Made by a program: the position numbers and the translations under genes. The notes below the pieces were generated by a model. That model ran no database searches, had not been told where the DNA came from, and saw nothing but the letters and a program-made list of their open reading frames with translations. Of a DNA stretch of 64,000 nucleotides, positions 6,572 through 62,347 are shown one piece after another. This stretch comes from Streptantibioticus silvisoli (GTDB taxonomy: Bacteria; Actinomycetota; Actinomycetes; Streptomycetales; Streptomycetaceae). How positions within the stretch are numbered: the stretch's first letter is position 1; each line of letters opens with the position of its first letter. The stretch covers positions 1 through 64,000 of the forward strand of contig NZ_JAAGKO020000040.1 in assembly GCF_027947535.2 (NCBI RefSeq), written 5' to 3'.

Positions 6572-7725
6572 GCGAACCCGACGAGGTGGTCGACGCCGAA
6601 CTGGTCGAGGATGACCACCTCCCGATCCGACGCCCCGATAACACCACGGCCCGGCCGCTTGTCGACCTGCACACCATCCTGGTCCCCGGTCAGCCCATCC
6701 CTACTGAAGCCGACCAGCCGACGTACACAGAGGCGGACCTCCGCGTCTCCGAGGCCACTGCCGAGCGGCTGAAGAACAAGTCCAAGCCAGTGAACACCTC
6801 CCGCACCTACGACAACCAGCGCGACCTCTTCCGCCGCTGGTGCGAGACCGAAGGTCGCGTCGCACGGCCGTGCACTACCGCCACCTACGTCGAGTACGTC
6901 GCTCACCTCATCGACGACGGGCGGGCGCCCAACGCCATCAGCGTCGCCATGTCCGCCATCCGCACCTGGATGCCCGACGACAAGAAACCCGGCACCACCG
7001 AAGCACGCGGCATGCTCAACGAGTACAGGAAGGAATGGAACAAGCGCGTCGGCGTGAAGAAGGCGCCGGCCATCACCGACGCCATGCTCCAAGCCATGAT
7101 CGCCACCTGCGACCTGGAGCACCCCAACGGCATCCGCGACCGGTGCGTCCTCCTCCTCGGCCGCGGAGCCCTCAACCGGCGAATTGAACTCGCCGATCTC
7201 ACGATCGGCAACGTCACCGTCGAAGCCGAGGGCGTCGCCCTCTGGATCTCCGCCAGCAAGACCGATCAAGAGGCCAAAGGCGAGGAAACCTTCATCCCCG
7301 CCGACGACGACCCGCTCCTCGACCCGGTGGCCGCCACCCGAGCATGGCTCAACGTCCTCCATCAACTGGGTGTTCACGATGGCGCGTTCCTCCGGGCCCT
7401 CACCCGCGAAGGACGACTCCAGTCCCGCGTCCGCGCCACCAACCGAGGCGAGCACGTTACCGGCGACGCCATCAACACCTGGGTTCGCGGGCGAGCACAA
7501 GCAGCTGGCCTTCCCGGCTGGAAGAAGGTCACCGCACACGGGCTACGACGCGGCGGTGCTCAAGCCATCGCCGACGCCGACGGTGACCCCACCAGCCAGG
7601 GTCGCTGGAAGGCGGGGAGCGCCGTGGTGAAGCGCGAGTACCTCGACCGGGCGCAGAACCGTGGAGCCAACCCTTGGCTCAAGGTGCAGGAGAAACGGCG
7701 CAGTCAGCAGAAGGAGGCTGAGTAG
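6568..7725 (+). CDS. int: tyrosine recombinase / integrase
   Basis: A 385-aa site-specific recombinase. An N-terminal core-binding (SAM-like) domain spans residues about 60-165 (NTSRTYDNQRDLFRRWCETEG), and the catalytic domain about 170-370. Catalytic residues by motif: Arg204 (LNRRIEL), Lys231 (SASKTDQ), His324-x-x-Arg327 (AHGLRRGG), Trp347 in place of the second His (QGRWKAG) and nucleophile Tyr358 (VKREYLD). It would integrate and excise the element at an att site. No att repeat or target tRNA is visible nearby. Confidence 0.93.
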   Translation: MSEPDEVVDAELVEDDHLPIRRPDNTTARPLVDLHTILVPGQPIPTEADQPTYTEADLRVSEATAERLKNKSKPVNTSRTYDNQRDLFRRWCETEGRVARPCTTATYVEYVAHLIDDGRAPNAISVAMSAIRTWMPDDKKPGTTEARGMLNEYRKEWNKRVGVKKAPAITDAMLQAMIATCDLEHPNGIRDRCVLLLGRGALNRRIELADLTIGNVTVEAEGVALWISASKTDQEAKGEETFIPADDDPLLDPVAATRAWLNVLHQLGVHDGAFLRALTREGRLQSRVRATNRGEHVTGDAINTWVRGRAQAAGLPGWKKVTAHGLRRGGAQAIADADGDPTSQGRWKAGSAVVKREYLDRAQNRGANPWLKVQEKRRSQQKEAE

Positions 7726-43837: not shown

Positions 43838-44617
43838 TCAGCTGGCTTTGGCGGCTTTGCCGCGGCCGTTGCAGGGGGCGCAGACGGTGGTGGTCTGCGT
43901 GCCGGAGTCGAGGGTGTAGAGGGCGCCGGTGCCGCCGCAGTCCCCGCACAGGCCCTTCTTGCGGGCGGCGGCCGGGGTGATGCGGGAGTTCTGGGCGAGC
44001 CACTGCAAGTCGGTCTTCGGGGCGGCGGCGGTGTTGGTCTTGGTGAGCGAGGCGGTCTTCGCCGGGGCGGGGAGGTTGGTCGGGTCGACTCCTTCGGGGA
44101 GTTGCATGACGAGTCCGCCGCCCATGGGCCGGCCGCCGTGCTTCTCCTGCTCGTGGGTGCGGAGTGCCTTGGTGGCGGTCTTGTCGTCGTGGTGGCGGGG
44201 CTTCTGGCTCTTGCCGCAGGGGCACCTCCAGCCCAGGAGGCCCGACCGCTTGTCGACCCCGGCGCGGGCTGCGGCGTGGATCCTGAGCTTGGAGACCTTG
44301 ACCTCGCGCGGCTTGGCAGGGCAGGTCTTGGAGCCGGCGAACGAACCGTCCTTGTCCCGCTTGGTGATCACGCCGAGGCCGCCGCAGGTCTGGCAGCCCT
44401 CATGGGTGATGCGGAGGATCGCCGCATCTTTCCGGGAGCGCACGGACTCGTGATGAGCCTTGGCATGGCGGGCGATCCGGCGGCCGAGCCACGAGGCGAA
44501 CCGTTCGGCGGGGCTGGTGTGGCGGCTCGGCCGCTTGGCAACCGCAGCCCGGGTTGCGGGGCGCTTGGCGGGCTTCTTGGCGGTCCGCTTGCTGGGAGTG
44601 GCGGTCGTCGCGGCCAT
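43838..44617 (-). CDS. zinc-finger protein downstream of traB
   Basis: 259 aa from ATG 44617, with AAAGGACCC upstream. A basic N-terminus (PSKRTAKKPAKRPATRAAVA), then several CxxC knuckles: EGCQTCGGLGV, RCPCGKSQKPRHHDD, LCGDCGGTGALY and VCAPCNGRGK. The last two form a DnaJ-type CxxCxGxG pair. The basic tail and zinc fingers suggest nucleic-acid binding. Its place next to the transfer genes suggests a role in plasmid transfer or its control. Confidence 0.72.
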   Translation of the reverse strand: MAATTATPSKRTAKKPAKRPATRAAVAKRPSRHTSPAERFASWLGRRIARHAKAHHESVRSRKDAAILRITHEGCQTCGGLGVITKRDKDGSFAGSKTCPAKPREVKVSKLRIHAAARAGVDKRSGLLGWRCPCGKSQKPRHHDDKTATKALRTHEQEKHGGRPMGGGLVMQLPEGVDPTNLPAPAKTASLTKTNTAAAPKTDLQWLAQNSRITPAAARKKGLCGDCGGTGALYTLDSGTQTTTVCAPCNGRGKAAKAS

Positions 44618-44670
44618 GATCGGCGGGTCCTTTCAGGATCGTCACAAATACGGAGGAATAGGTTGGCGGG

Positions 44671-44801
44671 AGCCCGGCGTGGACCCGGCGGGAGGGCGGC
44701 GGACACCCGGCGACCTGCACCGATGCCTCGCCGTCCCGCCGGGCTGCCGCCGGGGTTACGCCGGGCTCTTACCGGGGTTCTGCCGGGCCTTCGCCGGGTC
44801 C
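44671..44801. repeat. CCCGGCG repeat cluster beside traB, candidate clt locus
   Basis: CCCGGCG occurs directly at 44673-44679, 44684-44690 and 44706-44712, then as CGCCGGG at 44737-44743, 44748-44754, 44759-44765 and 44792-44798. GGACCCGGC occurs at 44681-44689 and inverted at 44793-44801. The cluster straddles the 3' end of the TraB gene. In Streptomyces plasmids TraB binds short repeats (GACCCGGA in pSVH1, as I recall) at a clt site next to traB. The repeats are visible; the role is inferred. Confidence 0.5.
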
Positions 44802-46897
44802 AACAGGCCCTTCGCGGCCTTCTCGACGTCGTCACGGGTCCAACCGCGGAGGTATCCCTCCGGGCAGTTCTGCCGGTCCGCCTTCACATCGGCGTGGGAC
44901 CGGAGCTTCTTGCCGAGGACGGTGCTGTCGATCCCCTCGATCCCGGCCGCCTCGACAGCGGGGACGAGGATCTCGGTCGACGGCAGGAAGTCCCGGCCAC
45001 GGGAGTCGAACTCCTGAAACAGCACCGACAGCAAGAACGCGTCGGCCTCGTCGGAGACGGCAAGCTGGTCGGTCAGCGAGCCCCGCTGGGCAGTGGACTC
45101 CAGTGCGTATCCGGCGGCGAGGATGGTGTCGGCGTCGGTCCGGTTGACGCCGGCAGCGACGCGCTCCGGCACGGCGTTGAGGATCTGGTCGCGGCTGTAG
45201 CCGTTGAAACGGTGCCGGATCGGGCGGGTGAACTGGCCGCCCATGATGTAGGACTGGCCGGCGTCGTTGACCACCGGGCCGACGGCGGGCTTCATGCGGT
45301 CAGGGCGCCAACCGAGGGCACCCATGCCCGCACCGAACACGATCCGCACGTCCTCGAAGCGACACGCCATGCCGATCCGGTAGGGGATCACCCCGGCCAC
45401 GGCGTCACCGAGGGCGTCCCCGGTGGCTTCCTGACCCATCATAATCAGGTAGACGCCGTACTGGCGCCCCGTGCGCAACACGTCGATGGCCGTCTTCTTC
45501 CCCTTCGGCGTGAGCAGCAGGTACTCGTCGATGAAGATGTAGACGTGCGGGTGCTCGGCGGTCGCCTTCCACCGGTCGCCCATGCCCGGCACGCGGGGCA
45601 TGACTTCCTTGCGGGCGTTGACGTAGGCGAGGGCGCGGTCCAGGGCTTCCTCGCACTCCTCCTGGGTGCGGGCCCGCAGTTCCATGAGATCACCGAACTC
45701 TGCGAGTCCGCCCTTGATCGGGTCGAGGTCCCAGCAGACTGCGTCCACACAGGCGGTGAGGGCCTCGGCGATGGTGCGGGAGGCGCCGAGGGTCTTGCCG
45801 GCGCCCATCGCGCCGACGACCAGGGCGCAGAACCCGTCGAGGGTGATCTCGAACGGGCTGCCGTCCATGGCCCGGCCCATGACGATCGCGTCGTGCACGG
45901 ACAGGGATCGGGGGGCATGGATCTGCGGTCGGGGCATGTCGGCGAACGGGTCGGCGCGGACGAGGCGGACGGTGATGCGGGACTTGTCACTGGCCAGCGG
46001 TTCCATCATGAACCCGCCATCCGGGATGGCCAGGTGAGATTCGATCTGGTCGGCGGCGGACTGAACCTTGCCCGGTGTCGAGCCCTTGAGGACGACATCG
46101 ATCTCGTAGCCCCAATCGCGGACCGACCCGAGGATGATGCTGCGGGTGCTGACACCCTCGGCGGCCAGGGCCCGGCCGACACAGTCGGCGACCTGCTCCG
46201 GCGACTTGCACCAGGCGAGCGGGTAGGGCTCGACACCATCGTCGATGTCCTCGGCGGCGACGATCTCCCCGGGGGCGATCCGGCGGTTGAGCCGGTACCG
46301 CCCGTAGGCGGTGATCGCGGCGACGGCGGCGGCGGCTTCGGCTCCGGGCAGGATGGCCCAGGAGTCGGCGGCGGCCAGGCCGGCTCCGGCGGTGAGGCCC
46401 CACCAGCCGAGGAGGTCGGCGAGTCCGAGGCCGCCGATGCTGCGGGCGAGGAACTTCCAGCGGGTTCGCCGGGTCTGGTGGATCTTGGTCCAGTCGGTGG
46501 CGGATGCCATGCCGCCGATGGTGTCGTGGTGGTCCCGGGCGCGGACGTACCGGTAGCCGAGGCGGCTGGTGTGCAGGAGGCCGTGGCCGAAGTAGCGGGT
46601 GCCGAGGGCGGTGGCGCGGCCGGTGTATCGGGCGGCGGTCATCGCCGCCGACCCGCCACGGTAGAGAACCGGGGGCCTCGGGACGTAGTACTCGACGATG
46701 CCCGGAGCGGTGTCCTCGCCGTCGTCGGCCTGGTCGTCGACAACCATCTCGATGGTGTCGGCGGAGGTGCGGTCGACCACCTCGCCGACGATCGTCAGGT
46801 GCGGCTTGTGGAGGCTCACGGTCGGCGCGTCGGAGCGCATGAAGTCGGGGACATCCAGGTCGTCGCCGGACTCCCGGATCGTGTAGTTAGTAGACAT
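44756..46897 (-). CDS. traB: FtsK/SpoIIIE-type DNA translocase, TraB-like
   Basis: 713 aa from ATG 46897. Hydrophobic helices (LARSIGGLGLADLLGWWGL, WAILPGAEAAAAVAAITAY) lie at about 150-200. A motor domain follows with Walker A VVGAMGAGKTLGASR (Gly362-Thr369), Walker B HVYIFIDEYLLL (452-458) and a MMGQEATGDALG sensor segment. The C-terminal 75 residues form a winged helix (EGIDSTVLGKKLRSHADVKA). This matches Streptomyces TraB/TraSA proteins, which move double-stranded plasmid DNA between mycelia. Encoded beside Spd-like genes and the CCCGGCG cluster. Confidence 0.9.
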   Translation of the reverse strand: MSTNYTIRESGDDLDVPDFMRSDAPTVSLHKPHLTIVGEVVDRTSADTIEMVVDDQADDGEDTAPGIVEYYVPRPPVLYRGGSAAMTAARYTGRATALGTRYFGHGLLHTSRLGYRYVRARDHHDTIGGMASATDWTKIHQTRRTRWKFLARSIGGLGLADLLGWWGLTAGAGLAAADSWAILPGAEAAAAVAAITAYGRYRLNRRIAPGEIVAAEDIDDGVEPYPLAWCKSPEQVADCVGRALAAEGVSTRSIILGSVRDWGYEIDVVLKGSTPGKVQSAADQIESHLAIPDGGFMMEPLASDKSRITVRLVRADPFADMPRPQIHAPRSLSVHDAIVMGRAMDGSPFEITLDGFCALVVGAMGAGKTLGASRTIAEALTACVDAVCWDLDPIKGGLAEFGDLMELRARTQEECEEALDRALAYVNARKEVMPRVPGMGDRWKATAEHPHVYIFIDEYLLLTPKGKKTAIDVLRTGRQYGVYLIMMGQEATGDALGDAVAGVIPYRIGMACRFEDVRIVFGAGMGALGWRPDRMKPAVGPVVNDAGQSYIMGGQFTRPIRHRFNGYSRDQILNAVPERVAAGVNRTDADTILAAGYALESTAQRGSLTDQLAVSDEADAFLLSVLFQEFDSRGRDFLPSTEILVPAVEAAGIEGIDSTVLGKKLRSHADVKADRQNCPEGYLRGWTRDDVEKAAKGLLDPAKARQNPGKSPA

Positions 46898-46900
46898 CGG

Positions 46901-48343
46901 TCAGCCCTCCTGGGGGTCGCTGTTGTGGACCTGCTTGGCGGTGATGGACGCCTGCCGGCGGGCCGCGTTCACGTACTGCGGGGTGTCTCCTGCACGTCGC
47001 GTCGGGGGCTTGCGAGCGGGCCCTCGCTGAGCACGGGGCATTTGGTTTGCACGCTGCGACGACACGCTCTTTTCTGTGCCCTTTTCGGCACCCTGCGTGA
47101 CGTACTTCTGCATGCGGCTGACAGCCGCGTTGCGAGCGCCCACGACGTTCGCGTCCTCACCCGGCGCGGCACCGTTCACGTCGAAGCACGCCTGCCGCCA
47201 CGTGGCCTCCGAAACCGTCGTCTCACCAAGCGCGGTGGACAGTCGGACGGCCCGCTCCCACTCCTTCGGATAGAACTCCTCGCGCTGCTTCGCGAGCTTC
47301 TGCGCAGCCTCCGCCGCAGCCTTCTCCTCGGCAGCCTTCGCGACGTCCGCACGCTGCTTGGCGGCCTTCTCTTCGGCGGCAATCCGGGCGGCTTCCTTCT
47401 TCGCGGCACGCCGCTGTGCGCGGGTCAGCTTCCCGTCGCGGAGGCGGATGCGACCGTGCTCGTGGAGGTCCCACACACCGGGCCCGGCCAGTGATGCGAA
47501 CGCGGTGCCGGCAGCGGTGGCCATGTCGAAGTGCGTCAGGCCGTGGGACAGGTTGATACCGGCGGCGAGGAACGCCAGGGTCCAGGCGATGAGCCGGTAG
47601 TGCCAATGCGGCCGGTGGTCATCAACCGCAGCGGCAGCACCACGGAGCACGACCCAGGCGCCGCCTTCGAGGACGACGGGTGCGGCCAGAAGCCAGGGGG
47701 CGTTCGGGTTGTAGAACGCCGACATCTGTACGGGGAGGGCGACGATCGCGCACACGATTGCGAAGCTGATTGCCGCTTTACGCCATGACTTAGCGGACGA
47801 GGCGACCTTGGTCTGAGCATCGGCGTTCTGGCGCCGTTCGGCTTCGGCAGCCTCGCGGGCTTCGCGGGCCGTGCGCTCCTCCTCTTCCCTCTTGCGGTTG
47901 GCGGCGGCGATGCGGGTGTCGTTGTCGGCCTTCTCGCGGTCGAACCGCAGCTGGTTTCGCTTGAGGTTGAGGGCTTCCTTCTCGTTGGCGATCCGCAGGG
48001 CTTCCTTCTCTTCGGCCGCCTTGGCTGCGGTCGCTTCGGCTTCGGCGGCGGCTGCGACGCGTCGGGCTTCGGCTTTGGCGGCGGCGTCGAGTCGGATCGC
48101 CTCGGCCTGCGCTTCGGCGAGCGGGTCGCTGGTCGGCTGGACGGGTTCGGCGTGGGCGTGCTGCTCGACCGACACCGGCAGGGCGGCCAGGGTCTGGGTC
48201 GGGGCGACGGTCGGCGTCGGCAGGTTGATGGGGAAGTCGACGAGCCGGATCTGGGTCGCCGCGGCCCGCTTGGGCGTGTCGACGGTGTGGCCGTTGACGG
48301 GCTGCCCGTTGGGGCCGTACAGGCGAGCCGGGGCGGTGGTCAC
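46901..48343 (-). CDS. DUF2637 (Spd-like) membrane protein with long coiled coils
   Basis: 480 aa from GTG 48343. Residues about 75-185 form an Ala/Glu/Lys coiled coil (EAQAEAIRLDAAAKAEARRV...). Four hydrophobic helices follow: AAISFAIVCAIVALPVQMSA, LLAAPVVLEGGAWVVLRGAA, LIAWTLAFLAAGINLSHGLT and a fourth around FASLAGPGVWDL. A second coiled coil and an HTH-like C-terminal region (TVSEATWRQACFDVNG) end the protein. DUF2637 proteins accompany traB in Streptomyces elements and act in intramycelial spread. Confidence 0.85.
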   Translation of the reverse strand: MTTAPARLYGPNGQPVNGHTVDTPKRAAATQIRLVDFPINLPTPTVAPTQTLAALPVSVEQHAHAEPVQPTSDPLAEAQAEAIRLDAAAKAEARRVAAAAEAEATAAKAAEEKEALRIANEKEALNLKRNQLRFDREKADNDTRIAAANRKREEEERTAREAREAAEAERRQNADAQTKVASSAKSWRKAAISFAIVCAIVALPVQMSAFYNPNAPWLLAAPVVLEGGAWVVLRGAAAAVDDHRPHWHYRLIAWTLAFLAAGINLSHGLTHFDMATAAGTAFASLAGPGVWDLHEHGRIRLRDGKLTRAQRRAAKKEAARIAAEEKAAKQRADVAKAAEEKAAAEAAQKLAKQREEFYPKEWERAVRLSTALGETTVSEATWRQACFDVNGAAPGEDANVVGARNAAVSRMQKYVTQGAEKGTEKSVSSQRANQMPRAQRGPARKPPTRRAGDTPQYVNAARRQASITAKQVHNSDPQEG

Positions 48344-51837: not shown

Positions 51838-52590
51838 CTACGAAGGGAACGTGTAGATCAGCCGGTAGCTGTCGGAGTCCATGACCATCTCATTGACCTC
51901 TACCGGGCGATCGTCCGAGTCGTATGCCGTGCGGACGATGCGGAGAATTGGGGTCGTCTGGGTGATCCCCAGGTCTGCGACCTCGTCAGAGAGAGGCAAA
52001 CGAACCTCGATCTCCTCGCGGTAGCGAGCCGGACCGTGGCCGATCTCGTCGAGTCGGGCGTACACCCCCCCCGGGCCCGTGTCGGGCTGTGCGATGCGCG
52101 CTTCTTCGGCCAGGTCTGCCGGATACCAGCCGGTGGACTTCATGACGGTGCGCTTGTCGACCCGATGCAGCCGGCTGCGCCGCCACACCTTCTGGCCGCG
52201 CACTCCGAGCACGCCAGCCACGGGCGCAGGCGGATCGATTTTCTCGACCTGCGTAGTCTCCTGGTGTCCAAGCGGGCCGGTGTCGTGATCCCAGATGGAT
52301 CGACCGGCTCCCCATTGGCTTCTTGAGGCTCGTGCGACCGCATCACGGCTGAGGCGCCGGAAGCTGCGCAGGTGGACACCCGATCCACGGCGTGTCTCGA
52401 TCAGGTCTTCACTGCGCAAGACCTGGAGGGCGTCTCGGACGGTATTTCGAGCAACCCCGTACTGCTCAGACATCTCACGTTCACTCGGGAGCTTGCGGGT
52501 GCCTTCGTAGGCGCCGGACTGGATCTTGGCGCGCAACTCGTCCGCGATCTGCTGATAGCGCGGCTTGTCGCCTCGCGCCTTCCCTGCCAC
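51838..52590 (-). CDS. GntR-family regulator, KorSA-like
   Basis: 250 aa from GTG 52590, with AGGAGG six bases upstream. A winged helix at residues 10-75 (YQQIADELRAKIQSGAYEG, KLPSEREMSEQYGVARNTVR) is followed by a UTRA-type sensor domain (residues about 90-245, ending DSDSYRLIYTFPS). Such regulators control transfer and excision genes in Streptomyces plasmids and AICEs (KorSA of pSAM2). A GTAGAC/GTCTAC operator lies at its own promoter. Divergent from a GIY-YIG nuclease gene. Confidence 0.88.
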   Translation of the reverse strand: MAGKARGDKPRYQQIADELRAKIQSGAYEGTRKLPSEREMSEQYGVARNTVRDALQVLRSEDLIETRRGSGVHLRSFRRLSRDAVARASRSQWGAGRSIWDHDTGPLGHQETTQVEKIDPPAPVAGVLGVRGQKVWRRSRLHRVDKRTVMKSTGWYPADLAEEARIAQPDTGPGGVYARLDEIGHGPARYREEIEVRLPLSDEVADLGITQTTPILRIVRTAYDSDDRPVEVNEMVMDSDSYRLIYTFPS

Positions 52591-61375: not shown

Positions 61376-62347
61376 TCACGCCGCGGCAGGAAGGGCGGCG
61401 GCAGACGGCAGGCCGGTCGCGGCCGAAAGGACCGCGGTCGCGAACGGGACAGCGACGGCATTGCCAACCTGGAGGTACCGCTGACCCGCCCGGCCGGCGA
61501 ACACCAGGCCCGGCCGGAACCCCTGAAGTACGGCAGCCTCAGCCAGCGTCGGCCGCATGTGGGTTACCCCAACCCGCTCCCGCCACTCGCCAACCCGCTC
61601 CGCCGCGGCCTTCATGGCCCGCCGGGTGCCGTTGCCGAACGGCTCCGCACCACCCGTCGCCGTACCGCCGCCCGTCACTGTGGGCGCCGGCCGCCGGGTG
61701 TAGCCCCAGCCGATCGCCTCCGCCATCGACACGTGCGGCAGCAGCCCCAGCCCGAACCCGTGGGTCGGCTCCGGCAACCTGACCTCCGCGACCCGGCTGG
61801 CAACGAGCACCGCACGCTTACGGTGCTGCGGCAGCCCGAAGTCCGCCGCATCCAGCACCCCGCACGCCGCCGAGTACCCCCAGTCGCGCAGGATCTCGAC
61901 GTACTGCCCCCACAGCGGCAGCACTGCCGGCACCTGCTCCATTGCGATCCACTGTGGGCGCAGGTCGTAATGCCAGCGCATCGGCTCCGCCGTGAGGATC
62001 GACCGCTCGTCCAGGCAGGCAGCCTTGATGGCTGCCCGGGTGTCCCGTCCGCGGGCCAGGTCTTCCACCGCCTGCGCGACCAGCGGCCGGTCGTGCAGGC
62101 CGAGACGGCCACCCGAGCGCGAGTACGCCTGACACGGCGGCGAATCCACCTTGCCGACGGTCCGGCCACGGAACGGCTCGGTCGGGTAGTCGGCCACGTC
62201 GCACTGGACGGTGGCGTGCCCCGCATCGCTGCGAGTTCGGCAGGCCGCCCAGTCCAGCTCCAGCCCTACATCGGCGAGGCCGAGGGGGAGCATGCCCTCG
62301 GACCAGCCGATGCCGGCGAACCCGTGGACGATCAAGTCGGCGGTCAT
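61376..62347 (-). CDS. C5-cytosine DNA methyltransferase
   Basis: 323 aa from ATG 62347, overlapping the upstream TGA. Motif I-like LIVHGFAGIGWSEGM, motif IV with the catalytic Cys72 in VDSPPCQAYSRSGG, motif VI-like WIAMEQVPAV (Glu137), motif VIII PQHRKRAVLVAS and motif X YLQVGNAVAVPFA. The target-recognition region (about 190-270) is short. It should methylate cytosine C5 in DNA. No cognate endonuclease is seen, so it is probably a protective or regulatory phage methylase. Confidence 0.92.
   Translation of the reverse strand: MTADLIVHGFAGIGWSEGMLPLGLADVGLELDWAACRTRSDAGHATVQCDVADYPTEPFRGRTVGKVDSPPCQAYSRSGGRLGLHDRPLVAQAVEDLARGRDTRAAIKAACLDERSILTAEPMRWHYDLRPQWIAMEQVPAVLPLWGQYVEILRDWGYSAACGVLDAADFGLPQHRKRAVLVASRVAEVRLPEPTHGFGLGLLPHVSMAEAIGWGYTRRPAPTVTGGGTATGGAEPFGNGTRRAMKAAAERVGEWRERVGVTHMRPTLAEAAVLQGFRPGLVFAGRAGQRYLQVGNAVAVPFATAVLSAATGLPSAAALPAAA

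Follow-up and report, generated by a model that had tools for sequence, protein, structure and literature searches.

The clt loci of the Streptomyces plasmids pIJ101, pJV1, pWTY27 and pSVH1 hold direct or inverted repeats, and TraB of pSVH1 reads 8-bp repeats via helix alpha3 of its C-terminal domain, as described in three papers (PMC3583192, PMC4170104, PMC5133688). The principle that repeats at traB are read by helix alpha3 is already known from pSVH1. Here, a repeat array at the 3′ end of a traB-like gene of Streptantibioticus silvisoli was analyzed in a stretch of 64,000 nt (positions 1 to 64,000 of contig NZ_JAAGKO020000040.1), the whole of which is called the window. The array is most probably the clt-type recognition locus of the adjacent TraB-like motor, its core predicted to be read by the winged-helix domain of that motor.

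The pWTY27 clt, on which TraA was footprinted and which includes 16 bp of traA, resembles the array of the window in straddling a stop codon and in combining direct with inverted repeats, but the repeats themselves are TGACACC and CCCGCCC, according to PMC3583192. In pSVH1, compared by description, the 8-bp TraB recognition sequence (TRS) is GACCCGGA, as an earlier note on this DNA had given it, in agreement with the review PMC5133688; the sources, available in part, mention no 11-bp ladder, GACCTGC box or phage setting for this plasmid. The portions available of PMC9513070 and PMC3218068 contain nothing further on repeats. At pJV1, the published CCGCACA-type repeats likewise begin at the traB stop codon, whereas their spacing is about 8-13 bp, they lie in one orientation and their array has no GACCTGC. 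pFP1 and other Streptomyces plasmids with this TraB branch carry an array with the box at the same place, the pFP1 core being CTCTAC; pFP1 differs in being a plasmid, and its TraB aligns with about half of the window protein at 34% identity. There is also a likeness to FtsK, whose winged-helix gamma domain reads short polar sites, the FtsK-orienting polar sequences (KOPS), and orients the hexameric motor; KOPS, however, are dispersed along the chromosome and do not form an array beside the motor gene. No mention of the 11-bp ladder, the shared box, the exchange of cassettes or a phage-borne clt, all described below, was found in the literature searched, which was available in part and did not include Vogelmann 2011.

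An 11-bp ladder across the traB stop codon

The motor gene and the array comprise the following features, in window positions.

44756-46897, minus strand: traB-like gene, 713 amino acids, predicted FtsK/SpoIIIE-type DNA motor (P0001); PHROG 12531, E 3e-86; pIJ101 Tra by BLASTP, E 3e-9 over the motor
44759-45085, minus strand: C-terminal winged-helix-like domain of TraB, residues 605-713; AlphaFold2 model, mean predicted local distance difference test score (pLDDT) 73.5
44894-44926, minus strand: predicted recognition helix, residues 658-668, STVLGKKLRSH; helix 54-64 of the modelled fragment, role assigned from position
44793-44798, minus strand: forward unit 1, CCCGGC
44782-44787, minus strand: forward unit 2, CCCGGC, then A
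44771-44776, minus strand: forward unit 3, variant CCCGGT
44760-44765, minus strand: forward unit 4, CCCGGC
44749-44754, minus strand: forward unit 5, CCCGGC, directly past the traB stop codon
44738-44743, minus strand: forward unit 6, CCCGGC
44711-44726, plus strand: box CGACCTGCACCGATGC; GACCTGC (GCAGGTC on the traB strand) at 44712-44718
44706-44711, plus strand: inverted unit, CCCGGC
44695-44700, plus strand: decayed inverted unit, GGCGGC, assigned from its 11-bp position on the ladder
44684-44689, plus strand: inverted unit, CCCGGC
44673-44678, plus strand: inverted unit, CCCGGC

Read on the traB strand, six forward CCCGGC-type units are followed, after a 19-bp gap, by the GCAGGTC box and then by four inverted positions, three good and one decayed. 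The forward units step by exactly 11 bp (lowest plus-strand bases 44793, 44782, 44771, 44760, 44749 and 44738), and the array as a whole, 44673-44798, straddles the traB stop codon at 44756-44758. It contains GACCCGG, which is seven of the eight bases of the pSVH1 TRS. The earlier note had described seven heptamers clustered partly inside the coding sequence, and all seven are present (CCCGGCG at 44673, 44684 and 44706; CGCCGGG at 44737, 44748, 44759 and 44792), as is GGACCCGGC, once per orientation (44681 and 44793) within the cluster; the gene, ahead of its stop codon, fully contains four forward units. What did not survive is the picture of a loose heptamer cluster, since the repeats form an 11-bp ladder with a GCAGGTC box, to which two further units beyond the seven heptamers belong (CCCGGC at 44782-44787 and CCCGGT at 44771-44776).

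The heptamer count was set against simulated windows, a check that the earlier note had proposed. Seven copies fall within 131 bp, compared with a maximum of four in 300 Markov copies (100 each of order 1, 3 and 5), and no other 7-mer with four or more occurrences on the 81,972-bp contig forms so dense a cluster. The lag-11 autocorrelation of the whole contig peaks at 44734-44799 with a value of 0.67, whereas the best lag-11 window in 30 order-3 copies of the contig had a mean of 0.56 and a maximum of 0.62; as the lag is 11 bp, codon periodicity is not its source. Across the 8.7-Mb genome, one pattern of three cores at 11-bp spacing has a single occurrence, which is this array, and CCCGGCG-CCCGGC pairs 11 bp apart number 67, four of them here, compared with 26 when the pattern is reversed. 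The clustering is genuine and greatly exceeds chance expectation.

Recurrence of the array in related loci

TraB relatives were detected at E <= 1e-20 in 14 of 199, 42 of 394 and 32 of 391 genomes, the sets overlapping; a related-locus search of genome contigs gave no relative and a search of plasmid DNA found none. Records taken in amounted to 11 of 48 matching plasmid records and 3 of 89 matching phage records. The locus set comprised 71 loci, reduced to 65 by removal of six redundant ones, to 64 without L036 (two internal stops) and to 63 without L006 (short). Outside the 71 stood L070 (same place as L055), three phages, pIJ101, pJV1 and the known plasmid-phage ZL12.

The CCCGGC core of the window is found again in L002, L003 and L022 (G416), and L004 and L062 have the core CCCGTCT. 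More distant relatives carry TGCTCA, TGCTA, GATCCGTC, GATCGGC, GGAACC, GTGACG, CCTGTC, TGTGTC or CTCTAC at the same position. A motif finder, with traB coding stretches as its only controls, gave the region of the traB stop a higher score than the traB body of the same locus in 55 of 63 loci, and a score exceeding all controls in 48. Of 443 same-orientation neighbours, 178 were spaced by 10-12 bp versus 34 of 443 in controls, and 32 of those 34 control neighbours were at 12 bp, the coding period; at exactly 11 bp the figures are 116 of 443 and 1 of 443. L056, for which the finder gave no ladder, has a CCTGCC-type array by eye. Among 20 classical TraB loci, of which L105 scored no higher than its own control, the finder recovered TGACACC, the TraA-footprinted repeat of pWTY27, in several.

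By eye, no such array was present in the 250 bases after the motor gene of the phages NootNoot, StarPlatinum and Tomas (L044, L045 and L046), whose motors are homologous (34-37% identity), indicating that the array does not accompany the motor as such. Nor was an array seen by eye in the 420 bases after the FtsK gene of ZL12, which is matched by four of the window's predicted genes.

Covariation of the core with the DNA-binding domain

Evidence that repeat specificity is set by the C-terminal winged-helix domain consists of covariation and natural swaps. Residues 340-560 of P0001 served to measure motor identity, and the C-terminal 95 residues to measure domain similarity. For 55 loci (1485 pairs), core and winged-helix similarity gave a partial correlation of 0.45 with the motor controlled, a value reached by 0 of 2000 label shuffles; the corresponding value for core and motor with the domain controlled was 0.05 (126 of 2000 shuffles). 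When pairs were sorted into four cells (1293 of the 1485 pairs, which are not independent, with numbers derived from fractions), a common core was found in 66 of 73 pairs alike in motor and domain and in 24 of 32 with unlike motors and like domains, but in only 1 of 13 with like motors and unlike domains and in 101 of 1175 unlike in both. At the level of sequence, the core tracks the C-terminal DNA-binding domain of TraB, and not the motor, across these 55 loci. The predicted DNA-reading helix, STVLGKKLRSH in the window, is ATSLSTKLRKH in L002 and L003, SAKLARILQSH in L004 and ATKLSAMLRAH in L062.

The clearest outline of a swap comes from L003 and L004, whose motor regions are 98% identical while domain and core both differ. 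DNA identity in 100-bp bins is 0.89-0.95 in the motor, 0.54-0.78 from -400 to +100 and 0.87-0.96 beyond +100, so that the divergent stretch of roughly 500 bp around the stop codon corresponds to the DNA-binding domain plus the array. The control pair L003/L002, with the same core, stays at 0.77-0.95 throughout. In the pairs L002/L024 and L003/L024, the sequences are unlike upstream and alike (0.74-0.94) only past the array. These comparisons show that domain and array can be replaced jointly as one specificity cassette, which would explain why the array overlaps the gene.

A box shared among loci

The most widespread 7-mer between -60 and +200 of the stop codon is GACCTGC, which, counted with its complement, occurs in this region in 50 of 63 loci; its density there is 5.0 per kb versus 0.62 in the rest of these loci. 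When one mismatch was allowed, TGACCTGCG was found in 51 of 63 loci versus 16 of 63 control stretches, and the 9-mer occurs in both orientations in 27 of 63. The window's own box has two mismatches to TGACCTGCG and was counted only via the 7-mer; 15 of the 16 bases of CGACCTGCACCGATGC match L031. GACCTGC is present in seven of the 20 classical TraB loci, and in four of these it lies at the stop codon or ahead of it. pIJ101 (L048) has it at 6888, among GTTGC/GCAAC repeats (about 6840-6930), and at six other places; the 6888 region may be the mapped clt, which PMC3583192 places close to korB. A literature search with the letters of the box returned no conjugation paper among the titles listed.

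Tentatively, and with some doubt, we consider a scheme of two layers, in which an element-specific ladder read by the TraB winged helix would be joined by the shared box (around TGACCTGCG) with a common reader, perhaps a host protein. A cassette of DNA-reading domain and ladder would then be exchanged among phages, plasmids and integrated elements, changing the DNA address without a change of motor and avoiding the moving of rivals or being moved by them, and the phage might spread as naked DNA besides particles.

Downstream of several arrays lies a gene whose product has, by eye, a lysine/arginine-rich, KKPAKR-like start, including the window gene listed first below, the relatives of which come after the array in L002, L003, L004 and G416. 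Such a product might act as a DNA-binding partner, for instance of the shared box.

43838-44617, minus strand: gene adjoining the array, lysine/arginine-rich start; weak DnaJ zinc-finger match, 25.8 bits (cut-off 32.7)
46901-48343, minus strand: gene before traB; possible membrane protein, judging from hydrophobic stretches seen by eye
51838-52590, minus strand: GntR-UTRA regulator, past the opposite end of the transfer region

The position of the gene before traB is occupied in pFP1 by a DUF2637 gene.

The motor protein and its carrier

P0001 has the Walker motifs GAMGAGKT and IFIDEY and, besides its BLASTP match, is linked to pIJ101 Tra by a family profile with 98.1% probability, consistent with homology to conjugative Tra motors. 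Structure comparison of the winged-helix-like model returned many winged-helix domains in a second-look list (best Z 6.4), and a Foldseek search with it gave no match at E <= 0.001. FtsK gamma is absent from the structure match lists, an absence that is uninformative either way. A TraB relative on a Kitasatospora plasmid (L081) was seen to have a Pfam FtsK gamma domain (PF09397, 52 bits) at its N-terminal end, residues 16-71.

The contig of 81,972 bp carries terminase, portal, major head, tape measure and integrase genes, a gene set of temperate tailed phages, as well as an exonuclease and an antirepressor. The integrase assignment combines a PHROG 1 match (E 1.5e-7) with a Pfam score of 25.7 bits, below the cut-off of 27.1. 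No terminal overlap of 15-127 bases was found on the contig. Three relatives come from viral contigs, IMG/VR entries of 84-89 kb. The carrier is thus, judged by its genes, a phage-like element and not a simple plasmid; the clt reading of the earlier note has gained strong comparative support. Two DNA methyltransferases are predicted on the element, one of cytosine-5 type (window 61376-62347 and L020:4116-4907). The same genome encodes a second, classical TraB (G000:C104:7784-9769, L104; 821 bits, above the 800-bit cut-off), which has its own array with the core GCTGACACC plus a GACCTGC box. The DNA addresses of the two motors in this one genome would differ.

Weighing of alternative explanations

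The proposal that the array is a candidate clt site is supported by its position, its repeats, the recurrence of element-specific cores in relatives and the agreement of the core with the TraB DNA-binding domain. A number of observations weigh against it. In seven loci with TraB relatives (L012, L038, L041, L042, L075, L076 and L080) no clear array or ladder was found at the stop codon, and their site may lie elsewhere or have been lost; together with L056 they had no ladder by the finder and were left out of the covariation analysis, a choice that favours the clt reading. A first, cruder test by 6-mer overlap (59 of 64 loci) gave a partial value of 0.18, and about 0.01 in pairs with motors below 50% identity, so that the strength of the effect depends on the method of core comparison. 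Domain and array are adjacent, and their joint inheritance would by itself produce a link as well; in the 32 pairs with unlike motors and like domains, however, non-core columns match at 0.33 and core columns at 0.50, with offsets that were chosen for core matches. The return of identity past the array is less sharp in L009/L011 and L023/L024 than in L003/L004, slow in L025/L062 and absent in L015/L053, L007/L009 and L055/L019. As to the motor, P0001 scores 34.2 bits (E 1e-8) against the 800-bit cut-off of the TraB model NF041214 of NCBIfam and is, by this measure, a distant TraB relative outside that equivalog. It matches no Pfam model at E <= 1, PF01580 included, for which the relatives L002 and L004 score 22.8 and 17.4 bits (cut-off 24).

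The array could be a replication or partition origin bound by Rep or ParB and placed beside traB by chance gene order, as short repeats likewise form ladders in iterons and centromeres. The RepA iteron of pWTY27 has direct and inverted repeats, as stated in PMC3583192. The core, however, follows the DNA-binding domain of TraB and is swappable with it, and no replication or partition gene or adjacent initiator was recognized among the proteins scanned, a scan that did not cover every gene. An origin is therefore given a small chance.

A slight chance goes to an operator function, with units spaced for cooperative repression by the GntR-type regulator or by some other repressor of transfer genes. 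A GntR-UTRA gene does lie about 7 kb from the array, and transfer genes of pIJ101 are controlled by the repressors KorA and KorB, according to PMC4170104. An operator would be at odds with the location at the end of traB and with a core that tracks TraB; no sigma-70-type promoter was detected in 44500-45000 by a scan that covers Streptomyces promoters poorly.

A long hairpin acting as RNA or cruciform, such as a terminator or a folded end of the traB transcript, we regard as very unlikely. Compared with shuffled copies, the traB strand has the better fold (z -2.8, 0 of 200), and its 33-nt arms are 82% complementary, but inverted copies of one core pair by necessity, and a fold better than shuffled sequence follows from inverted repeats alone. 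Linkers were complementary in register at 345 of 979 positions (0.35) versus 1746 of 5384 (0.32) in registers shifted by multiples of 11 (54 loci); complementarity no higher than in the shifted controls speaks against a selected hairpin. There was also no terminator-like site and no Rfam match.

Chance clustering in GC-rich coding sequence, or simple-repeat drift, would draw on a window GC content of 68% and on the frequency of CCCGGC-like words (83 heptamers on the contig), but with at most four per 131 bp in 300 simulated windows and dozens of relatives that share the architecture with other cores, it is already refuted by the comparative data and has next to no probability.

Proposed function and significance

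With the array read as a clt-type locus, the C-terminal winged-helix domain of TraB would recognize the CCCGGC core. Steps of 11 bp, about one helical turn, would place the cores on one face of the DNA, where several TraB subunits could dock side by side and the motor ring would load on DNA of the element in preference to the chromosome; the opposed arm might load motors in the other direction. It is plausible that the element moves between cells by means of its TraB-like motor and this array.

Taken together, dozens of domain and core pairs, including one nearly isogenic natural swap, offer a testable sequence code for the choice of DNA by a Streptomyces-type motor. They suggest that specificity may change in one recombination step, and they locate a candidate docking site of the conjugation type on a phage-like genome.
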